This document shows positions 19,002-30,207 of a DNA stretch of 32,796 nucleotides, piece after piece. The notes beneath the pieces are model-generated. The model saw only the letters and a program-made list of their open reading frames with translations. It did no database searches and was not told the origin of the DNA. A program made the position numbers and the translations under genes. Origin of the DNA: an uncultured Myxococcales bacterium (GTDB lineage: Bacteria > Myxococcota_A > UBA9042 > DTJE01); NCBI GenBank assembly GCA_903847405.1, contig CAINDP010000248.1, forward strand, positions 1 to 32,796, given 5' to 3'. Numbering within the stretch: the stretch's first letter is position 1; every line of letters begins with the position of its first letter.

Positions 19002-19408
19002 GTTGCACCTCCTTGGCCGGCAGGGGAGCGGCCATCGCCGGGGGGAACATTGGAGCGGGTTGGGTGTGTCGCAAGGGGAGCGGGGGCTTGTTCGCGGCGA
19101 GCGGCACGTAGCGTGCCGCGGATTATCAAAATCTACCGGATTGCCCGTGCGGCCCTTGCGGAGTACCTGTGATGACGAAGGACGGTGACAGGGCGATCCT
19201 TCATGCCGCGCCCCCGCCATCATCCCGCCGTTCAAGCTCGACCAGGACGGTCGAACCGGAGGAGCGCCGGGAACCCAAGCTGATCGTGAACGTCAGACCG
19301 TTCTTGGGCGGGTTGCCGCCGACGTACACCATGTCACCCCCGAGATCACGGTCATCACGGTCGGGGACGACGAGGACCCCATCAGGTAACTGCGAGAGCG
19401 ACATTACC
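19002..19408 (+). other. Gap between TPR gene and integrase remnant
   Basis: No well-supported gene. It contains a perfect 8-bp palindrome (19101-19119) with a GATAAT box just upstream on the minus strand, and a low-confidence 71-codon frame on the minus strand. The plus-strand frame running into the integrase remnant is Ser/Arg/Pro-rich and looks like non-coding or scrambled sequence. Confidence 0.5.
19101..19119. promoter_or_regulatory. Perfect inverted repeat upstream of TPR-amidoligase operon
   Basis: GCGGCACG and CGTGCCGC are separated by TAG. No T-run follows on either strand, which argues against a classical terminator. It lies 100 bases upstream of the TPR start and next to a minus-strand GATAAT (19127-19122) that could be a -10 box, so an operator is the likelier reading. 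Confidence 0.4.
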
Positions 19409-19416
19409 CTGGACAT
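19201..19416 (-). CDS. Possible small protein (71 aa), uncertain
   Basis: A 71-codon frame starting ATG with GGGAG nine bases upstream. Its translation (GVLVVPDRDDRDLGGDMVYV, then LTFTISLGSRRSSGSTVLVE) has a more natural composition than the overlapping plus-strand frame. It overlaps the integrase remnant by 8 bp. No family recognised; it could be a leftover of a larger gene broken at the island boundary. Confidence 0.3.
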   Translation of the reverse strand: MSRVMSLSQLPDGVLVVPDRDDRDLGGDMVYVGGNPPKNGLTFTISLGSRRSSGSTVLVELERRDDGGGAA

Positions 19417-19594
19417 CTACGGGATCTCCCGCTTGCTGGGCCACGCCTCGGTCACGACGACGGAGAAAGCCTATGTGGGGATTGCGGATTCGACTCTGAC
19501 GGCGGCGTTCGACAAGGCGGATGGGTGGGTTGCCACAAACGCGGCAACCCACGCGGCAACCCAAGGGCGGAAGCCACGCGACTACGACGCATAA
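19409..19594 (+). pseudogene. C-terminal remnant of a tyrosine recombinase (phage-type integrase)
   Basis: The frame carries ISRLLGHASVTTTEKAYV, the LGH-x-S-x-x-T-T-x-x-Y motif at the catalytic C-terminus of tyrosine recombinases: the His of the LGH box is present, and the Tyr appears shifted by one residue as EKAYV. Nothing upstream in this frame resembles the remainder of an integrase (no core-binding domain, no first catalytic Arg), so about 80 percent is missing. It ends at TAA 16 bases from the 3' end of tRNA-Thr, where such integrases normally attach their element. A defunct fragment marking an old insertion. Confidence 0.7.
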
Positions 19595-19610
19595 GTATTG
19601 GAATTGACAG

Positions 19611-19683
19611 AGCCAACGCGGAGAATCGAACTCCGGACCCCCTGATTACGAATCAAGTGCTCTACCGACTGAGCTACGTTGGC
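19611..19683 (-). tRNA. tRNA-Thr(CGT)
   Basis: 73 bases folding into a full cloverleaf: acceptor arms GCCAACG and CGTTGGC with discriminator T, D-arm GCTCAGTCGGTAGAGC, anticodon arm CTTGATTCGTAATCAAG with CGT, T-arm TCCGGAGTTCGATTCTCCG. CCA is not encoded. The 3' end faces the integrase remnant. Confidence 0.95.
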
Positions 19684-27411: not shown

Positions 27412-27486
27412 GCGCCTGTAGCTCAGCCAGGACAGAGCAGCGGACTTCTAATCCGCCGGTCGAAGGTTCAAATCCTTCCAGGCGTA
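27412..27486 (+). tRNA. tRNA-Arg(TCT)
   Basis: 75 bases; acceptor arms GCGCCTG and CAGGCGT (one G-T pair), discriminator A, anticodon arm CGGACTTCTAATCCG with TCT, T-arm GAAGGTTCAAATCCTTC. CCA is not encoded. First of three tRNAs behind one promoter. Confidence 0.95.
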
Positions 27487-27537
27487 CCCAGTTTCCGTCT
27501 TCCGCCTCGGCGGCGGGCGGGACGATCACCCTTCAAT

Positions 27538-27613
27538 GGTACCTGTAGCTCAGGGGTAGAGCGCCGGATTGTGGATCCGGTGGTCGTGGGTTCAAATCCC
27601 TCCAGGTACCCCA
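27538..27613 (+). tRNA. tRNA-His(GTG), CCA encoded
   Basis: Acceptor arms GTACCTG (27539-27545) and CAGGTAC (27603-27609), with the His-specific extra G at 27538 opposite C at 27610, followed by an encoded CCA (27611-27613). Anticodon arm CCGGATTGTGGATCCGG contains GTG. Confidence 0.95.
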
Positions 27614-27669
27614 TTGTTCCGGGACCCCGACGTCCCGGCGCACCTCCTCGCTGTCCGCACTTCGTCCCC

Positions 27670-27742
27670 GCGCCCGTGGCTCAATGGACAGAGCATCGGA
27701 CTTCGGATCCGACGGTTGGGGGTTCGAGTCCCTCCGGGCGCG
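27670..27742 (+). tRNA. tRNA-Arg(TCG)
   Basis: 73 bases; acceptor arms GCGCCCG and CGGGCGC, discriminator G, anticodon arm TCGGACTTCGGATCCGA with TCG, T-arm GGGGGTTCGAGTCCCTC. CCA is not encoded. Its last ~46 bases are repeated in broken form at 29490-29579. Confidence 0.95.
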
Positions 27743-27743
27743 C
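27698..27743. repeat. Direct repeat, left copy (attL-like, within tRNA-Arg)
   Basis: The anticodon arm to the 3' end of tRNA-Arg(TCG) recurs at 29490-29516 (27 identical bases) and 29561-29579 (19 identical bases), split by a 44-base insertion. The two copies flank the AbiE gene pair, as left and right attachment sites flank an element integrated at a tRNA 3' end. Confidence 0.75.
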
Positions 27744-27792
27744 CCTGCGTAATTCCACGATGTTGCCCGTCGAAGATCGCCTCTGGCTGCGC

Positions 27793-27839
27793 GTTGACTT
27801 TACGAATATCACATTTTTCGTTACTTTCATGAAGTCAAC
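27793..27839. promoter_or_regulatory. Nested inverted repeats upstream of abiEi, likely AbiEi operator
   Basis: Outer arms GTTGACTT (27793-27800) and AAGTCAAC (27832-27839) are perfect complements; inside lie ACGAA (27802-27806) and TTCGT (27817-27821). The left arm contains TTGACT, a likely -35 box, and the region is strikingly AT-rich for this genome. AbiEi antitoxins are known to repress their own operon by binding inverted repeats in the promoter, which fits this position 13 bases before the start codon. Confidence 0.6.
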
Positions 27840-27852
27840 ACGCAGGAACGCC

Positions 27853-28638
27853 ATGACCGGTCCCTCCTTTCTCCAGCAGATGGCCGCGAGCGGTCGCTAC
27901 CACTTCACGATGCAGGACGCGATGAAGGCGCTGGGGGCATCGGTTGTCGCCGTGCATGCGGTGCTGCGGAGGCTCAAGAAGCAGGGCCTTCTGGCAATGC
28001 CCGTGCGCGGCTTCTACGTGATCGTCCCGCCGGAGTATCGGTCCCTGGGATGCCTGCCGGCCGAGCAGTTCGTCCCGGCCTTGATGGACTTCCTGGACGT
28101 ACCCTACTACGTCGGCCTGCTCAGCGCGGCCGAACGGCACGGAGCCGCCCACCAGCGGCCCCAGGAGTTCCAGGTCGTGACCAGTCGCAACCGCGCGCCC
28201 CTGGTTAGCGGCAGTGTGCGGGTGGCCTTCGTGGCCCGCGGGAACGTCCGCGACGTGCCCACCGTCACCCTGAACAGCCCGCGAGGGTTCCTGAGGGTTT
28301 CGACTCCGGAGGCAACGGCGCTGGACCTGGTCACCTATCCCGAAAAGGCTGGGGGACTGGACACCGTCGCCACCGTCCTGGCCGAACTGGCCGAAACCCT
28401 CGATGCCCGGGCCCTCGCGGACGTTGCAGCCCGGGTGGGCGAGGTGCCCGCGGTCCAGCGCCTGGGGCATCTTCTGGACGCGGTGGGTGGCGGGTCCCAG
28501 ACCGCTTTCCTGGCCGACCTTGTCGCGAACCGGGCTCGCCGGGTCGTTCGCCTGGTTCCCGCTGCGCCGCTGTCAGGAGCGCCGCTTGACGCACGGTGGC
28601 GCGTCCGGGCCAATGCGACGATCGAGGTGGACGAATGA
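27853..28638 (+). CDS. abiEi: AbiEi-family antitoxin (type IV toxin-antitoxin)
   Basis: Encodes 261 residues. The start at 27853 has AGGA five bases upstream; an earlier in-frame ATG at 27829 lies inside the operator and is rejected. Residues 1-~65 form a winged helix-turn-helix (TMQDAMKALGASVVAVHAVL then RRLKKQGLLAMPVRGFYVIV). The central part (PYYVGLLSAAERHGAAHQRP, then FQVVTSR) and STPEATALDLVTYPEKAGG match the C-terminal antitoxin domain of AbiEi proteins. The family neutralises AbiEii without direct protein binding and autoregulates transcription. The stop overlaps the toxin start (ATGA). The module starts 110 bases after tRNA-Arg(TCG). Confidence 0.88.
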   Translation: MTGPSFLQQMAASGRYHFTMQDAMKALGASVVAVHAVLRRLKKQGLLAMPVRGFYVIVPPEYRSLGCLPAEQFVPALMDFLDVPYYVGLLSAAERHGAAHQRPQEFQVVTSRNRAPLVSGSVRVAFVARGNVRDVPTVTLNSPRGFLRVSTPEATALDLVTYPEKAGGLDTVATVLAELAETLDARALADVAARVGEVPAVQRLGHLLDAVGGGSQTAFLADLVANRARRVVRLVPAAPLSGAPLDARWRVRANATIEVDE

Positions 28639-29456
28639 TCCCGCAGGACTTCATCACCGAGTGGCGCGCCCATGCCCCCTGGACGCAGGACGTGCAGGTC
28701 GAGCAGGACCTGGTCATCAGCCGGGCCCTGATCGAAATCTACCGCGTGCCTGAACTGGCCGAAACGCTGTCCTTCCGGGGCGGGACGGCTCTGTACAAAC
28801 TGCACCTGCGCCCGCCGGCCCGGTACTCCGAAGACATCGACCTGGTCCAGGTGCGCCCCGAGCCCATCGGCCCGACCCTGGACCGGCTGAAGGCCGTATT
28901 GGACCCCTGGCTGGGCGTGCCGCGCCGGGACCAGAAGGAGGGCAGGGTCAACCTGGTGTGCCGGATGCAGGCCGAGGGGCCGTCCTCCCTGCCCATGCGC
29001 CTGAAGGTCGAGATCAACACCCGGGAGCACTTCTCCGCGGTGGGCCACATCCTGACGACCTTCGTGGTCGACGGTCGTTGGTTCACCGGCCAGGCGGACA
29101 TCCTGACGTTCCCCTTGGACGAGTTGCTGGCCACCAAGTTGCGGGCCCTCTACCAACGGAAGAAGGGGCGGGACCTGTTCGACCTGTGGCATGCGCTGGG
29201 GTCCGGCCACGTGGACCCAGCCCGGGTCGTCACGATCTTCGGCCAGTACATGGACCGCGAGGGCCATTCCGTTTCTCGGGCCGAGTTCGAGGAGAACCTG
29301 GTCGCCAAGGAGAACGACCCGATCTTCCGGGCGGACATCCAACCACTGCTGGCGCCGCGCATGACCTGGGACTTCGACGCGGCGCTGATGGCCGTGCGGA
29401 CCCGACTGGTGGAGATGATGCCCGGCGCCCCCTGGAAAGGACGGGCGAGCCGTTGA
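28635..29456 (+). CDS. abiEii: AbiEii-family nucleotidyltransferase toxin
   Basis: Encodes 273 residues, start coupled to the antitoxin by a 4-bp overlap. The nucleotidyltransferase core is clear: LSFRGGTALYKLHL with the GG-T motif and, about 15 residues on, RYSEDIDLV with the two catalytic acids. PLDELLATKLRALYQRKKGR followed by DLFDLWHAL is the conserved helix pair with Lys and Asp seen across AbiEii/DUF1814 proteins. Family members are GTP-dependent or related nucleotidyltransferases (some modify tRNA acceptor ends) that halt growth and cause abortive infection. Its location beside tRNA genes is an insertion-site effect, not evidence for the target. All motifs look intact, so it is probably active. 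Confidence 0.88.
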   Translation: MIPQDFITEWRAHAPWTQDVQVEQDLVISRALIEIYRVPELAETLSFRGGTALYKLHLRPPARYSEDIDLVQVRPEPIGPTLDRLKAVLDPWLGVPRRDQKEGRVNLVCRMQAEGPSSLPMRLKVEINTREHFSAVGHILTTFVVDGRWFTGQADILTFPLDELLATKLRALYQRKKGRDLFDLWHALGSGHVDPARVVTIFGQYMDREGHSVSRAEFEENLVAKENDPIFRADIQPLLAPRMTWDFDAALMAVRTRLVEMMPGAPWKGRASR

Positions 29457-29480
29457 AGGGAATCTGTCGATGAAACGGAT

Positions 29481-29579
29481 GCGCCCCCGGGACTTCGGAT
29501 CCGACGGTTGGGGGTTGCGGACTCGCCTGCGGCGAGTTGCAGACTCGCCTGCCGCGAGTTCGAGTCCCTCCGGGCGCGC
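29481..29579 (+). pseudogene. Broken copy of tRNA-Arg(TCG) (attR-like)
   Basis: It begins GCGCCC like the real gene, then lacks about 22 bases covering the D-arm. It resumes with 27 bases identical to the anticodon and variable-loop region (29490-29516), is interrupted in the T-loop by 44 foreign bases, and ends with 19 bases identical to the T-arm and acceptor end (29561-29579). It cannot fold as a tRNA. It is best read as the displaced original 3' part left at the far end when the AbiE segment inserted at the intact copy. Confidence 0.75.
29517..29560. repeat. Tandem 22-bp hairpin repeat inside the tRNA remnant
   Basis: Two adjacent 22-base units (29517-29538 and 29539-29560) differ at two positions. 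Unit one contains ACTCGCC-TGC-GGCGAGT, a perfect 7-bp hairpin; unit two has the same hairpin shortened by one pair. Each unit ends in GTT, matching the T-loop bases at the break. Confidence 0.85.
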
Positions 29580-29658: not shown

Positions 29659-30207
29659 ATGAATCCCACCGATCCAACGACCTCGTCCATCCTGCTCGTC
29701 CGATCCAGCATCCTGGAACTGCGAGGCCAGAAAGCCTTGATCGACTCGGATCTCGCGCGATTCTATGGGGTGACGACCAGCCGCCTGAACGAGCAGGTGA
29801 AACGGAACCCCAACCGCTTTCCCAAGGATTTCATGTTCCAGTTGACCGCAGAGGAGCGACGGGAGGTGATCGCAAATTGCGATCACCTGTCTCGCAAGAT
29901 GCTGTTTTCCAACAGATTACCCTTCGCCTTCACCGAGCACGGCGCCATCATGGCCGCCAGCGTCCTGAACACGCCCCAGGCGGTCCAGATGAGCGTGTAC
30001 GTCGTCCGGGCATTCGTCGCGATGAGGCAGGCGCCCTCGGGACCGCCTGATTGGGCCGCATGGCTTCGCGAGATCGGCGCCCGCCTGGACGACCACGACG
30101 ACTCGATCCGGCTGGTTGCCCAGGCGCTCGAGGAACTGCTGAGTCCGATCGATGCCCCGGCACCCCGGCCGCTCGGGTTCCGACCCGACCCTGACGCACC
30201 TACGTAA
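29659..30207 (+). CDS. ORF6N-domain DNA-binding protein
   Basis: Encodes 182 residues. The N-terminal ORF6N domain is well marked: LVRSSILELRGQKALIDSDL, FYGVTTSRLNEQVKRNPNRF, PKDFMFQLTAEERREV and LPFAFTEHGAIMAASVLNTP. A helical segment (MSVYVVRAFVAMRQ, then LRDI-like EIGARLDDHDDSIRLVAQAL) and a Pro-rich tail follow. ORF6N proteins occur in phages, plasmids and chromosomal islands and are thought to bind DNA; the exact role is unclear. It lies just outside the tRNA-Arg remnant, so either it belonged to a larger element or the remnant is internal to an island. Confidence 0.88.
   Translation: MNPTDPTTSSILLVRSSILELRGQKALIDSDLARFYGVTTSRLNEQVKRNPNRFPKDFMFQLTAEERREVIANCDHLSRKMLFSNRLPFAFTEHGAIMAASVLNTPQAVQMSVYVVRAFVAMRQAPSGPPDWAAWLREIGARLDDHDDSIRLVAQALEELLSPIDAPAPRPLGFRPDPDAPT

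Follow-up and report, generated by a model that had tools for sequence, protein, structure and literature searches.

The segment at positions 27746 to 29579 of the window (the whole stretch of 32,796 nucleotides analyzed here, which is contig C248 of a 5.65-Mb metagenome bin) is probably a minimal integrated element without an integrase, of the cis-mobilizable (CIME) kind. An AbiE toxin-antitoxin operon lies there between an intact tRNA-Arg(TCG) gene and a broken copy of its 3' half. The bracket is, judged from its sequence, the pair of att cores left by a tRNA-specific integration. We favor a CIME-like segment over a trans-mobilized cassette or a pure relic. Comparable pairs bracketed by tRNA sequence are found again in a congener and in green sulfur bacteria, so the segment resembles a tiny passenger island more than an isolated case.

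The tRNA bracket and the AbiE operon

The features of the segment and its flanks are the following.

27412..27613, + strand: tRNA-Arg(TCT) and tRNA-His(GTG) (ARAGORN), conserved upstream neighbors in the same array order in most relatives
27669..27745, + strand: intact tRNA-Arg(TCG) (ARAGORN), host/element junction on the attL side
27793..27839, + strand: inverted repeat GTTGACTT-N31-AAGTCAAC before abiEi, putative AbiEi operator
27853..28638, + strand: abiEi antitoxin gene (Pfam AbiEi_1, 9e-44; AbiEi_4, 5.8e-6; PADLOC PDLC02282, 2.8e-90)
28635..29456, + strand: abiEii toxin gene, a nucleotidyltransferase (Pfam PF08843, 1.5e-36; PADLOC PDLC02294, 3e-105)
29490..29579, + strand: 3' remnant of tRNA-Arg(TCG), attR core, copy of 27698-27743
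29517..29560, + strand: 44-bp insert in the T-loop of the remnant, two 22-bp imperfect palindromic units
29659..30207, + strand: ORF6N-domain gene immediately past the remnant and not part of the bracket (Pfam ORF6N, 1.7e-26; PADLOC candidate PDC-S05)

The copied stretch begins in the anticodon stem, runs to the end of the tRNA, and comprises 46 bases (27698-27743); the copy is broken by 44 bp. Bases 27698-27724 recur exactly at 29490-29516, and bases 27722-27743 recur exactly at 29558-29579. A first-pass annotation of the window had reported 46 tRNA bases in two exact downstream blocks, and both these coordinates and shuffled sequences bear it out: the longest exact match between the tRNA and the remnant is 27 bases, compared with at most 12 bases in 300 shuffles. 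A better fit of the remnant to another tRNA, which the same annotation had named as evidence against its reading, was not found in the bin. The best match in the 5.65-Mb genome was tRNA-Arg(TCG) itself (27669-27745), and derivation from another tRNA was rejected, as no other tRNA gene of this genome matched equally well. The 16-bp core of the anticodon arm is undamaged in both copies. A "tRNA-Cys" called by ARAGORN at 29504-29579 is spurious and consists of the remnant plus the insert. A search of the genome at up to 2 mismatches found the 44-bp insert (29517-29560) only here, and this single occurrence led us to reject a dispersed repeat.

Between the two tRNA copies, Pfam and PADLOC show just AbiEi and AbiEii, in agreement with the earlier statement that the pair is the sole content and that no recombinase is present. 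Both genes are intact, abiEii overlaps abiEi by ATGA (the start codon of abiEi was assigned from relatives), and the noncoding DNA at the two ends of the segment measures 107 and 33 bp. Adjacent AbiEi and AbiEii proteins of the right families identify an AbiE type IV toxin-antitoxin system. The toxin motifs (GG...DhD, KLxA, and RDxxD) are complete in AbiEii (FRGGTAL...YSEDIDL, TKLRALYQR, and GRDLFDL), and nearly all of the motif residues are invariant across six aligned relatives. The toxin is under purifying selection (dN of ~0.16 and dS of ~0.69 against the G009 orthologue, at 76% identity). No tRNA was seen at that same-family locus of G009, whose contig stops ~150 bp past AbiEii. Upstream of abiEi, the inverted repeat is a probable AbiEi operator, with a geometry like that of the 11-bp N27 repeat bound by Streptococcus agalactiae AbiEi (PMC3985639). 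Only 7 relatives of the window AbiEii were found in viral contigs.

The tRNA-Arg(TCG) site in relatives and the mobility of the segment

At ten loci in relatives of the same family (one each in G001, G002, G003, G004, G005, G007, G009, and G011 and two in G010, all of them metagenome bins), the DNA homology with the window stops -2 to +3 bases from the 3' end of tRNA-Arg(TCG). The array of tRNA-Arg(TCT), tRNA-His, and tRNA-Arg(TCG) is kept in most relatives, and the DNA downstream of it differs in each, so that the outer boundary of the segment is defined by the remnant alone. Relatives without such cargo carry a single tRNA-Arg(TCG) and no broken copy at the site. Together with the break of homology at the tRNA end, this lends good support to the first-pass reading of the locus as attL, cargo, and attR; a broken tRNA persisting in relatives without AbiE, which had been set out as counterevidence, was not seen there. 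The proposed comparison with empty sites was borne out in part: cargo-free relatives have the single tRNA, but none of the relatives, in which the downstream flank is not conserved, showed an empty site with its two flanks.

Parts of the downstream flank occur elsewhere. The ORF6N gene has a copy with 77% DNA identity in G001:C159; ORF6N and kelch-region fragments of the flank were found elsewhere in G001, with no match in G002 or G009. An ORF6N homologue lies directly past the intact tRNA-Arg in G007. Directly downstream of the same tRNA-Arg, and without a remnant, are an opposite-strand AbiEii gene in G004 (L055) and a DUF4143-type ATPase (assigned by eye) in G002 (L050). In another part of the window, a degenerate fragment resembling a tyrosine recombinase (19112-19591, + strand) abuts tRNA-Thr(CGT) (19610-19683, - strand), and integrase fragments are also found near tRNA-Thr(CGT) in G004 (L110) and G012 (L111).

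At this tRNA, the order in the congener G001 is a 7.4-kb element, a tRNA remnant adjoined by the tyrosine integrase of that element, an AbiEi/AbiEii pair, and a second remnant of exactly the same 46 bases. The earlier proposal to look for other cargo between the same repeats thus yielded an integrase element and a different AbiE pair. This pair has no detectable BLASTP similarity to that of the window and belongs to other PADLOC subfamilies; its AbiEii is the sole PF08843 match in the G001 genome, and its segment has noncoding ends of ~120 and ~50 bp. At the same tRNA, G011 has an integrase element whose integrase is 86% identical to that of G001 and whose end is a 19-bp copy of the anticodon arm. 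A 71% relative is located at tRNA-Lys in G005, with a full remnant. An excisionase-like HTH protein is also encoded by members of the element family, and those in G005 and G009 encode DUF3631/DUF3854 proteins, which we take to be replication proteins. When AbiEii loci of the window's own family were scanned for tRNA 3' copies, only those of the window and G001 were positive, so the association is common but not universal. Two further AbiEii genes (L112 in G007:C137 and L124 in G050:C101) lie directly beside tyrosine integrases.

The cutoff at the tRNA 3' half was observed twice in G001 (one of the two copies has a single mismatch and matches for a few bases more), and tRNA-Lys in G005 shows a cutoff like it. 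With this recurrence, a window copy limited to the 3' half from the anticodon arm onward, and shuffles that reach 12 bases at most, it is very improbable that the bracket is something other than an integration scar, such as a tandem duplication of the tRNA locus, a chance match, or an assembly artifact, even though ~9 of the 14 bases just past the tRNA end also match between the two copies.

The integrase elements bear clusters of a GGGTAGCA repeat at both ends, which are likely to be arm sites of their integrase. No such clusters were found in the AbiE segments of the window or G001. In the genome of the window itself, four matches to PF00589 (tyrosine recombinase) were detected. The one compared closely (in C125, adjoining tRNA-Glu) shares ~30% identity with the G001 and G011 integrases along part of its length. 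On this comparison, a helper integrase in this genome was rejected as a candidate, no close relative of those integrases having been seen. The first-pass suggestions that an integrase moves the cassette in trans and that a cognate integrase might be found elsewhere in the genome accordingly gained no support here. With arm clusters missing and no close integrase, nothing that was seen would be able to move the segment by itself. Both copies have a whole anticodon-arm core, so a composite could in principle leave via the outer cores if an integrase element were to land alongside.

These observations bear on two other origins for the segment. It seems unlikely to be a trans-mobilized cassette, that is, a nonautonomous unit with ends recognized by an integrase encoded elsewhere, delivering AbiE into tRNA sites in an integron-like manner. 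Such delivery would fit the presence, at one and the same tRNA of two species, of AbiE pairs that BLASTP does not relate to each other and whose compact spacing is nearly equal, and it is also favored by the Chlorobiaceae cassettes described below. Against it are the lack of arm-repeat clusters in both AbiE segments and the fact that no close integrase relative was seen in the genome. As for integrons proper, neither an attC-type folding site nor an IntI-type integrase was found; the repeat at the site is the tRNA 3' half, and the elements there carry phage-type integrases. A pure relic, meaning an ordinary island stripped to AbiE, immobile, and retained for the addiction or benefit conferred by its toxin-antitoxin pair, is possible although doubtful. 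The insert in the remnant, the lack of both arms and an integrase, the purifying selection on AbiE, and the stabilization of plasmids by AbiE (PMC3985639) all agree with it. On the other hand, compact, clean ends are seen twice, with different AbiE pairs, and the 16-bp core is whole on both sides.

The preferred CIME-like reading fits a segment that is bounded by attL and attR and has no integration or transfer genes between the repeats. No remnant of a parent element was found in the segment; integrase elements are present at the same tRNA in G001 and G011, and an accretion-like arrangement was seen in G001 only. Under this reading, a tyrosine-recombinase element would have entered tRNA-Arg(TCG) at the core in the anticodon arm, the element's own 3' half restoring the tRNA while the old 3' half was displaced to 29490. 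One AbiE type IV operon would remain between the two att cores, the integrase having presumably been lost or never carried. AbiEi would repress its own promoter and neutralize AbiEii, which may stop growth upon phage attack, probably by altering tRNAs, and addiction to AbiEii could hold the segment in place. Movement would be expected only if an integrase element landed alongside, as in G001, with both units excising between the outer cores.

AbiE loci and tRNA remnants beyond the discovery pair

We scanned 99 other AbiE loci for a T-arm motif, leaving out the discovery pair and taking the expectation from the rest of the loci. Motifs of tRNA 3' halves were found 9 times within 0 to 400 bp past AbiEii, compared with 0.97 expected (Poisson P of ~9e-7), and 8 of the 9 were on the toxin strand. 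None were found in the next 1.1 kb beyond 400 bp at these 99 loci. Seven of the matches are remnants, assigned by eye to tRNA-Gly (two), Asn, Arg, Leu, and the tRNA-Val type (two). Of the remaining two, one is an intact tRNA-Leu and the other is truncated where its contig stops. The peak past AbiEii may reflect a general property of cargo located near attR. At one locus (L160:63-5537), three tRNA-Leu 3' copies bound two small segments, the first with an NTP_transf_8 nucleotidyltransferase and a VapBC-type pair (PIN toxin by Pfam) and the second with a UppP-like gene and AbiE.

A locus of Chlorobium ferrooxidans (L204) led to a second array, at a tRNA-Val adjoining clpX. In G064, a third kind of pair (DUF6088/AbiEi-AbiEii) and then a tRNA-Val remnant come after this tRNA-Val, all within 2.0 kb, and no integrase was detected in this cassette. 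G074 has one AbiE pair directly before the remnant and a second past it, and G053 carries Fic and AbiE cargo. Among the other payloads in Chlorobiaceae are Septu PtuAB, a PrimPol/helicase protein, and a CLC channel together with a HigBA-like pair (assigned by eye). Tandem tRNA-Val/clpX cassettes were observed at L204, L288, L290, L291, L294, L296, L299, L304, and L307, with near-identical P-side ends, and AbiE of three kinds is among the swapped cargo; some of the pieces are on separate contigs, which limits how the arrays can be read. The 250 to 300 bp past the tRNA end are 87 to 100% identical among several cassettes with differing cargo. The junctions bear two types of arm-like repeat (TTACGC/TTATACG and TGCGACG), usually with one type at both ends of a cassette. 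A partial recombinase match overlapping one att site in L299 is the sole integrase-type signal in these cassettes.

From their sequences, the Chlorobiaceae units look like true nonautonomous cassettes, and their matched arm repeats at both ends, shared ends, and differing cargo make trans mobilization plausible there. These cassettes, with no detected integrase, one repeat type at both ends, and swapped cargo, and the G064 pair standing alone in 2.0 kb, are the points from outside the genus in favor of a trans-mobilized origin of the window segment. In addition, an AbiE operon elsewhere (L301, in G086:C11) is 93% identical to that of L204:7164-8901, and the homology is cut near the operon ends, with no tRNA in the flanks read. 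The confinement of this likeness to the operon suggests that the operon may also move without a tRNA tag.

The tRNA remnants just past AbiEii across phyla suggest that toxin-antitoxin pairs mark, and may hold, attR ends. A broader proposal, which we regard as speculative, is that AbiE-type and other toxin-antitoxin pairs might be the standard cargo of a widespread class of very small cassettes that lack an integrase and bear a tRNA 3' end as a tag. Such cassettes would insert in tandem at tRNA genes via integrases borrowed from other elements, exchange the payload that lies between their conserved ends, and be held by a toxin-antitoxin pair beside attR; the window would then contain a worn, arm-less member. 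Toxins of the AbiEii superfamily act on tRNA acceptor ends (PMC10435456), as has been proposed for AbiE (PMC7725324), and the placement at tRNA genes consequently invites a functional test.

Comparison with known systems

Integrase-less segments bounded by att sites are already known in the form of CIMEs and of the Dehalococcoides ssrA islands that lack an integration module; what is new is an unusually small variant that contains a single AbiE operon and nothing else. With a promoter, two genes, and two tRNA cores, it would count as one of the smallest candidate passenger units, and it offers concrete sites for testing mobilization in cis or in trans.

CIME and accretion are established concepts (PMC5704250, PMC3146451). 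CIMEs are bounded by attL and attR, lack integration and transfer genes, and occur next to integrase elements that occupy the same site (PMC5704250). The window segment resembles the ICESt1-related CIMEs of streptococci in being att bounded and free of integration and transfer genes, but it differs from them in its size (1.8 kb), its single toxin-antitoxin operon, and the absence of a trace of a parent element. The Dehalococcoides ssrA islands are tandem segments bounded by copies of an RNA gene 3' end, 15 of them without an integrase (PMC3146451); they differ in their tmRNA target, serine recombinase, and reductive dehalogenase cargo. The 3' tDNA fragment, the anticodon-centered crossover, and the tyrosine integrases (in the elements of relatives) are like those of Islander-type tRNA islands. 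Islander needs an integrase gene in the island, and the island sizes peak at 13.6 and 39.9 kb (PMC4383910). Because of this requirement it would miss the window segment, which is invisible to any island finder that demands an integrase.

The operon itself is like the AbiE systems of S. agalactiae and Serratia in its bicistronic AbiEi/AbiEii organization, its inverted-repeat operator (putative here), and its conserved toxin motifs (PMC3985639, PMC7725324). The AbiE examples cited in those two papers are on ICEs, plasmids, islands, or chromosomes, and none stands alone in a tRNA bracket. Defense genes are often located in islands without visible means of moving (PMC10121019). In the defense hotspots of Escherichia coli, AbiEii is found at certain island hotspots only, and many of the islands have no known mode of transfer (PMC10121019).
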